Source of the DNA: Hydrogenimonas sp.
GTDB lineage: Bacteria; Campylobacterota; Campylobacteria; Campylobacterales; Hydrogenimonadaceae
Direction: 5' to 3'
Assembly (NCBI GenBank): GCA_003945285.1
Contig: AP019005.1
Coordinates: 620,001-684,000 of the forward strand
Length of the DNA: 64,000 bases
The first letter of the stretch is position 1; each line of letters starts with the position of its first letter. The translations under genes were made by a program, and so were the position numbers. The notes below the pieces were generated by a model that worked only from the letters and a program-made list of their open reading frames with translations, was not told where the DNA came from and did no database searches. Below, in pieces: positions 3,753 through 55,380 of the stretch.

Positions 3753-3830
3753 AGCTATTCCCCCCTTAAAGGATGTTTCATGACTTCTATTCTATCGCAA
3801 AGTTGTTCTGTATGGAGTAGAGTATGTTAC

Positions 3831-3990
3831 CCCAAATCCCGAAATCGAGATAGAAGAGCTCGTCACGATCATTGCAGCCATGCACTTTGGGGAAAACCGT
3901 CGACTCAACTGACAGTGCGTTCGAAGCCGATCCGTCCTCTTTCATACTGTTTTGTCGGTTTGCAATTTGCACCATTTTCTATTTCGGGTG
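3831..3990. repeat. Repeat family 1, copy 1 (about 160 bp, TIR-flanked, decayed)
   Basis: The left edge CCCAAATCCCGAAATCGAGA and right edge TCTATTTCGGG are imperfect inverted repeats. The left half, including GAAGAGCTCGTCACGATCATT and GCAGCCATGCACTT, is nearly identical to the copies at 18628 and 55183. The right half is strongly diverged and the inner hairpin is broken. It fills most of the gap between the cupin gene (starting at 3752) and the small gene at 4057. The remaining bases (3753-3830 and 3991-4056) show no gene. Confidence 0.8.
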
Positions 3991-4056
3991 TTACAGGGGC
4001 GATAGGTCACAGTAAAAACTACTGTTCGACTCAAGTTATGCTTTACGTTGTGTTTT

Positions 4057-4478: not shown

Positions 4479-4641
4479 CTGACCTTGTGCAAAATTTGAC
4501 AGCCCCGGGAATATCGTAAAAAAACGCCTTCGCCAGTAAGGGCGCCGGAGGCGCCGGAGGCCTTTAGAGGTGCCCTATAGATATTTTGCGGCGCCACGCA
4601 GGGCTAAGCCAGTTCGGCGTGCGGATTTTGCGTAAGGTCAG
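4479..4641 (-). repeat. Repeat family 3, copy A (163 bp, 17-bp inverted ends)
   Basis: The ends CTGACCTTGTGCAAAAT (4479-4495) and ATTTTGCGTAAGGTCAG (4625-4641) are inverted repeats matching at 15 of 17 positions. The right end continues inward as a reverse complement of the left end of the copy at 54985. The interior (cggggctg, then a T7 run with acgatat) matches the copy ending at 17068. It is in the opposite orientation to those two. It ends only 24 bases before the fmt start codon. Confidence 0.82.
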
Positions 4642-16881: not shown

Positions 16882-17068
16882 ATCAGTCAATAATCTCCGC
16901 ATGCCGAGCGGGATTTGTCCTGCGGGACACCGCAGAACATCCATAGGTGGCCTTTATATGTAGCATGAAAACCGCTGATGCCTTCGGTGCCCTGAGGGGC
17001 AAGCGCGGTTTTTTTAACGATATTTTTCCGCTCAAATCCCGGGGCTGACTGATTTTGTGCAAGGTCAG
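16877..17068 (+). repeat. Repeat family 3, copy B
   Basis: The right end ATTTTGTGCAAGGTCAG (17052-17068) matches the outer end of copy A (4479). Near the left end, CCGCATGCCGAGCGGGATTT matches copy C (55002 on). The outermost bases of the left end appear to have been lost where it meets the family 2 element. Together the two elements fill 16771-17068 of the tolB-pal gap. Confidence 0.8.
16968..17016 (+). terminator. Terminator-like hairpin inside the family 3 element
   Basis: AAAACCGC (16968-16975) pairs perfectly with GCGGTTTT (17005-17012), and the T run continues to 17015. The inner part TGCCTTCGG...GAGGGGCA adds further pairing. It would stop transcription leaving tolB. The same AAACC...GGTTTT plan is seen in copy C at about 55050-55104. 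Confidence 0.5.
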
Positions 17069-18627: not shown

Positions 18628-18775
18628 CAAAATCTCGAAATAGAATATAGAAGAGCTCGTCACTATCATTGCAGCCGTGCACTTCCGGGAAAACCGTCGA
18701 CGCACCTGACGGGTGCGCCTAAAATTTTCCCGAAACCGCCTGACCGCAAGCATCGCAACGATTTCCGACTATTTT
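18628..18775 (+). repeat. Repeat family 1, copy 2
   Basis: Left edge CCAAAATCTCGAAATAGAAT, then the conserved body with TCGTCACTATCATTGCAGCC. The inner hairpin is intact: CGGGAAAA...TTTTCCCG enclosing CGCACC-tgacg-GGTGCG. The right edge has decayed. It lies between cpoB and the slyD promoter; nothing else is seen in 18776-18838. Confidence 0.85.
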
Positions 18776-18841
18776 TCTCCAGACTATCCATCTATTCGAT
18801 TCTATAACCATTCCTTAAGATTCTATAAAAGAAGGGTATGA

Positions 18842-54984: not shown

Positions 54985-55112
54985 CTGACCTTACGCAAAA
55001 TCCGCACGCCGAGCGGGATTTACCCTTCGGGGTGCGGCAACGAGGCTGAAACCGCCAATTCCTGCGGAACCCTTCGGGCACGAGAGGTTTTCTTAACTGC
55101 CGCTCAAATCGC
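54985..55112 (+). repeat. Repeat family 3, copy C
   Basis: Begins CTGACCTTACGCAAAAT (54985-55001), exactly the reverse complement of the right end of copy A, then CCGCACGCCGAGCGGGATTT as in copy B. The interior AAACC...GGTTTTC stem and CCGCTCAAATC follow. The right end is lost. The whole block is bracketed by ACGGTAATTCAAAA (54964-54977) and its inverse TTTTGAATTACCGT (55157-55170). Confidence 0.8.
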
Positions 55113-55182: not shown

Positions 55183-55345
55183 CCCAAATCTCGAAATAGA
55201 GATAGAAGAACTCGTCACGATCATTGCAGCCATGCACTTCCGGGAAAATCATCGACGCACCTGACGGGTGCGCCTCAAATTTTCCCGAAACCGCCTGACT
55301 ACAAGCATCATAACGATTTCGATCTATTCTATTTCGAGATTTGGG
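55183..55345 (+). repeat. Repeat family 1, copy 3 (intact, perfect 18-bp ends)
   Basis: The left end CCCAAATCTCGAAATAGA (55183-55200) and right end TCTATTTCGAGATTTGGG (55328-55345) are perfect inverted repeats. The centre folds as CGGGAAAA...TTTTCCCG enclosing CGCACC-tgacg-GGTGCG. This is the best-preserved copy in the window. It stops 36 bases before the promoter of the MNT gene. Confidence 0.9.
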
Positions 55346-55380
55346 GTTTTGGCCACAATTTTCACAAAACTTTTTACTGG

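Follow-up and report, generated by a model that had tools for sequence, protein, structure and literature searches.

Family A copies in the window and in the genome

The window (the whole stretch of 64,000 nucleotides that was analysed) contains one intact and two decayed copies of a palindromic element, here called family A. The features are listed below.

3831-3989, + strand: decayed copy that retains its left part, with GTTAC on either side (3826-3830 and 3990-3994)
18628-18780 (right limit approximate), + strand: decayed copy whose right end is gone, immediately 3' of a stop codon
55178-55182, no strand: left target-site duplication GTTTT, from flank comparison
55183-55345, + strand: full-length MITE copy (family A) of 163 bp, from its own sequence, its fold and the genome-wide model match
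55183-55200, + strand: left terminal inverted repeat (TIR) CCCAAATCTCGAAATAGA, from the sequence and the TIR pattern search
55254-55274, - strand: central hairpin GGCGCACC..GGTGCGTC, one of the regions of the element that are most conserved between genera
55328-55345, - strand: right TIR, identical to the left one, from the sequence and the TIR pattern search
55346-55350, no strand: right target-site duplication GTTTT, from flank comparison

The copy at 55183-55345 is one nearly full-length palindrome with exact 18-bp inverted ends. Both these ends and a central hairpin had been reported in a preliminary description of this DNA and were confirmed here, the hairpin as CGGGAAAA...CGCACC/GGTGCG...TTTTCCCG. 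The entire 163 bp also folds as one hairpin, with fold z-scores of -9.5 on the + strand and -13.0 on the - strand, and none of 200 shuffled sequences folded as well. The element carries no transposase gene, lies well under the size of about 600 bp that is taken as the limit for MITEs, and has TIRs common to all of its copies. A REP-type repeat, offered as an alternative in the preliminary description, was not supported: REPs are palindromes of 20-40 bp with a GTAG/CGTC tag (PMC3733652), a definition of REP/BIME repeats that does not fit an element of 163 bp with TIRs and a target duplication.

The whole genome was searched, as that description had advised, with a sequence model based on 27 copies of full length. 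This recovered 85 distinct sites in the chromosome of 2,193,435 bp (52 of at least 150 bp; together 0.52% of the genome), and the TIR pattern with at most two mismatches gave 127 matches, compared to 6 for a reversed control. The two decayed copies are real, and the earlier count of three copies holds inside the window but not genome-wide; likewise, the left half is kept best in the two decayed window copies but not in the family as a whole. The copies are nearly all intergenic, with genes predicted by a simple ORF rule. Within this genome, the window copy has a best match of 97% identity, which fits an old, probably inactive burst of the element.

Internally deleted remnants of 26-50 bp were also found (L163:2810-2835, L167:2480-2514, L166:2596-2630 and L169:2599-2648), some with their target duplications retained; they are as expected from deletion of a hairpin. 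We looked for an autonomous element at a sample of the unpaired TIR matches of this genome and rejected it there, as these were for the most part decayed copies or remnants of only 26-122 bp, and no second TIR flanking a transposase was found, with gene content judged from ORFs and from the IS1380 family searches of the genome. A second, unrelated repeat of 178 bp, with the ends CTGACCTTGCG/CGTAAGGTCAG, has many copies in the genome and occurs in the window at 4479-4641, 16896-17068 and 54985-55040. Near genome position 364,050 a copy of this repeat interrupts a family A MITE, and the window copy at 55183-55345 has a fragment of the repeat just upstream of it.

Target duplications and an empty site

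Target-site duplications, which the preliminary description had proposed to look for, were found, and they are AT-rich and of a fixed length of 5 bp, as is usual in MITEs. Mean identity between the two flanks peaks at 5 bp (0.76, versus 0.41 at 3 bp, 0.56 at 4 bp, 0.47 at 6 bp and 0.31 at 7 bp). The duplication is exact in 12 of 27 copies, while random flank 5-mers match in about 0.2% (0.002), and the duplicated target sites are 80% A+T. Very short remnants of 35 and 50 bp are in some cases still flanked by target duplications, and one copy has a second MITE inserted in it, flanked by a duplication of TTGAA.

Dispersed copies together with an empty site in relatives are a further mark of MITEs, and both were seen, the empty site at the one locus that was checked. 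At this locus (2104652), the flank matches are 30-46 bp apart in the congeners G001, G005, G010 and G017, compared to 201 bp here; in these congeners both flanking genes adjoin and the element is absent, and the empty site of G005 has a single target copy, TCTA-TATTT. The target duplications and the empty site show that the element is transposed. The prospect of only three copies and no empty sites in relatives, which would have spoken against a mobile element, was therefore not borne out, with 85 sites and an empty site in four congeners.

A probable IS1380-family partner in relatives

Among 399 genomes of the order that were searched for the 18-bp end, this genome, G022 (family f6) and several members of another family, f5, were enriched in it. 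Diverged full-length copies of 157-164 bp, about 73% identical to the window copy, are present in G014 (same genus), G022 and f5 genomes; they keep the same TIR and mostly have 5-bp duplications. One copy in G012 is 90% identical. No match of the MITE was found among 72,556 plasmids and spread by plasmids was rejected on this ground; a plasmid protein search returned only distant IS1380 transposases of about 25% identity. Viral contigs gave one exact TIR match with no paired end nearby. A scan of the genome collection with the central 17-mer gave 117 stretches in organisms judged unrelated by their titles, which were taken as chance.

In f5 genomes, a longer multicopy element is bounded by these ends, and several of these genomes contain complete IS1380-family insertion sequences with closely matching ends and 5-bp duplications. 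The intact elements of G206 encode a transposase of 440 aa that matches NF033539 (IS1380) at 5e-100 and PF13701 at 4e-43; their ends are CCCAAATCCGTAAATAGA and their duplications TTTAT, ATCAT, TTAAA and ATTAT. The elements of G391 have the duplications TTCTA and GGTTG and a right end, CCCAAATCCCGAAATAGA, that is one base off the MITE end. The right end of the G068 element is also one base from the 18-bp TIR, other IS ends differ at a few more positions, and a multicopy element of G343 is bounded by the exact TIR. The ends of the MITE are thus the same or nearly the same as those of IS1380-family elements. The target duplications of the IS1380 family are 4-5 bp long, and they are 5 bp in both the IS and the MITE. 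The matching transposase that the preliminary description had suggested looking for therefore exists in relatives, with none in this genome according to PF13701 and NF033539 searches. By NF033539 an IS1380 transposase is absent from 16 of 17 congeners as well, and G022 gave no match to this model, an absence that is less certain because the assembly is in 40 contigs. MITE and IS occur together in G206, G343 and G147; a matching transposase in the same genome, found in these three and not here, is no requirement for a stranded MITE.

The proposal that the element is non-autonomous and moved by an enzyme encoded elsewhere is supported by the duplications, the empty site in congeners and the complete IS1380 elements with matching termini in relatives. 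We consider it very likely that the element is a MITE mobilised by an IS1380-family DDE transposase, that it is now probably stranded in this genome, and that its hairpin was kept pairing best on one strand. As in other members of this IS family, the transposase would recognise the CCCAAATCnCGAAATAGA ends, cut the element out and insert it at AT-rich sites, which would yield the 5-bp duplication; the duplication and the empty site are observed, and for mobilisation in this genome the relatives serve as the guide. With no IS1380 transposase here now, and with copies that have diverged and are decaying, the family has probably become stranded.

A transposase of another family with similar ends could instead move the element, so that the link with IS1380 would be coincidental. 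The host lacks an IS1380 transposase, and the internal sequence is not common to the MITE and the IS, as this would lead one to expect. However, several genomes have closely matching 18-bp ends, the 5-bp AT-rich duplication is the same, and MITE and IS coexist in three genomes; we regard such a coincidence as very improbable. MITE and IS have only their ends in common. The element thus acts like a passenger of IS1380, and descent by internal deletion of an IS is not supported.

The IS1380 element of the congener G009 was rejected as the partner. It is multicopy (contigs L295, L300 and L303) and has different ends, CCCCAATAAATCC, and thus the genus met the IS1380 family independently. In eight of eight IS1380 leaders (L225, L223, L234, L273, L274, L270, L271 and L295), the ribosome-binding site of the transposase is closely preceded by CACCC-3nt-GGGTG or a near variant, and a competing longer stem is also present, which looks like two exclusive hairpins controlling transposase translation. 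Homology of this leader hairpin with the centre of the MITE was rejected: despite their resemblance, none of the alignments outdid shuffled leaders at 4/200 or fewer.

The element is of a known kind, a MITE, and represents a new family. IS1380-family insertion sequences such as the intact copies of G206 share with it the closely matching 18-bp ends, the 5-bp AT-rich duplication and the bacterial order, but they measure about 1.45-1.66 kb compared to 163 bp, and the element has neither a transposase gene nor internal similarity to them. Correia/NEMIS elements of Neisseria presumably differ from ours in their ends and sequence. They are similar in having about 100-160 bp, TIRs, target duplications and a transcript that forms a long stem-loop (PMC2229807). 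ERIC and other enterobacterial repeats are likewise palindromic repeats of over 100 bp, and the effects of ERIC on mRNA depend on orientation (PMC2229807), whereas our element combines a classical TIR with a 5-bp duplication and shows no preferred orientation relative to genes. The ends of the element are of the IS1380 type and 18 bp long, in contrast to the 38-bp, Tn3-type ends of the miniature elements known as TIMEs. These Tn3-derived elements, with which PMC4133298 deals, resemble ours in being non-autonomous and defined by transposon ends. IS1380 is not mentioned in a 2024 review of prokaryotic MITEs (PMC10969869), and no IS1380-linked MITE was found in the literature searched. This is a defined MITE family for which a candidate autonomous partner has been identified, and the pairing is directly testable.

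Proposed folding of one strand

Thirty copies from different lineages were aligned on the - strand (alignment A2). The hairpin pairs are kept in 95.3% of cells, and compensatory double changes occur in 27 of 63 pairs, amounting to 159 cells, versus a mean of 50 after shuffling (0 of 500 as high) and 21-56 with the partners slid by 1-3 columns. With pairing scored identically for both strands, the mismatches comprised 261 G.T and 28 A.C cells. Derived states at Watson-Crick pairs of the lineage consensuses were 23 G.T versus 3 A.C (p = 9e-5 at even odds, 0.002 against a 60% background), in counts that treat the lineages as independent, which is true only in part. Private states, found in one copy only, were 16 G.T versus 14 A.C, differing from the derived states at p = 0.015; in this genome alone, the contrast between shared (18:7) and private (14:9) states was not significant. 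The same strand, the - strand at the window copy, is the better-folding one in 57 of 57 copies, and the asymmetry recurs in a sister family, B (10:0 and 11:1).

This suggests that, in the lineage that spread, one strand was kept able to fold as single-stranded RNA. During its spread over several genera, the lineage would have kept the entire element as a hairpin pairing best on that strand, most likely because this strand folds when transcribed. We infer that copies decay neutrally after insertion and that the still-transposing lineage was filtered for one-strand folding, most simply as RNA.

The strong hairpin, the compensatory changes, the one-strand G.U pairing and the intergenic position of nearly all copies could also be expected of a conserved structured RNA gene or an intergenic regulatory repeat spread by duplication rather than transposition. 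This is hardly credible given the target duplications, the empty sites, the nested insertions and the fixed ends in common with an IS. The private mutations have no strand bias, and orientation to genes is random: the copies lie in both orientations (28:29, and 16:13 in tandem gene contexts, with ORF-rule genes), and thus no transcript-level role is visible, which also counts against the one-strand part of our own reading. Orientation relative to the chromosome half is also without bias (p 0.19). In Rfam, nothing matched above the gathering score, and the sole low-E match was a plant miRNA model (33, compared to a gathering score of 249), so that the caveat in the preliminary description that the sequence might be part of a conserved RNA gene finds no credible match behind it.

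For the one-strand part of the transposed MITE reading, the main rival is a mutational bias of the source copy towards A-to-G and C-to-T changes on one strand, which would favour G.T over A.C with no selection on an RNA fold. A-to-G and C-to-T, on the same strand, each account for roughly half of the derived changes, and the foldable strand has an excess of G+T, which leaves room for a mutational explanation. However, no clear bias is seen among the private mutations, compensatory changes occur in 27 pairs, and the share of G.T falls from 90% in the true pairing to 43-75% when the pairing is shifted by 1-6 columns. We hold mutation to be a rather unlikely cause of the asymmetry. That selection has long preserved the hairpin as RNA of a single, defined strand, in several genera and families and in the sister MITE families A and B, is put forward tentatively, with somewhat less than even odds. 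The transcribed strand would then contribute to how the element spreads or is tolerated; as a folded RNA it could, for instance, stop read-through or be recognised by a factor of the host or the transposon. It would thus be more than a mere side product of the inverted repeats.

That bacterial MITEs in general give rise to stable stem-loop transcripts is already known (PMC2229807), so the hairpin itself is not new. What is added here is the strand test, which was not found in the literature searched. The asymmetry of wobble pairs between strands (G.T versus A.C), with private mutations as a built-in control, provides a simple test of DNA versus RNA constraint in palindromic repeats, and it is applicable to other MITEs, whose hairpins usually pass as a side effect of inverted repeats.

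The sister family B is 164 bp long with the ends CCCGGATTTTGCAATAGA and was found at L334:1500-1663 (genome 749387-749548) and L174:905-1068. It is built like family A and shares its G.T strand asymmetry, and one family B copy is the MITE that sits in a family A copy with the TTGAA duplication.
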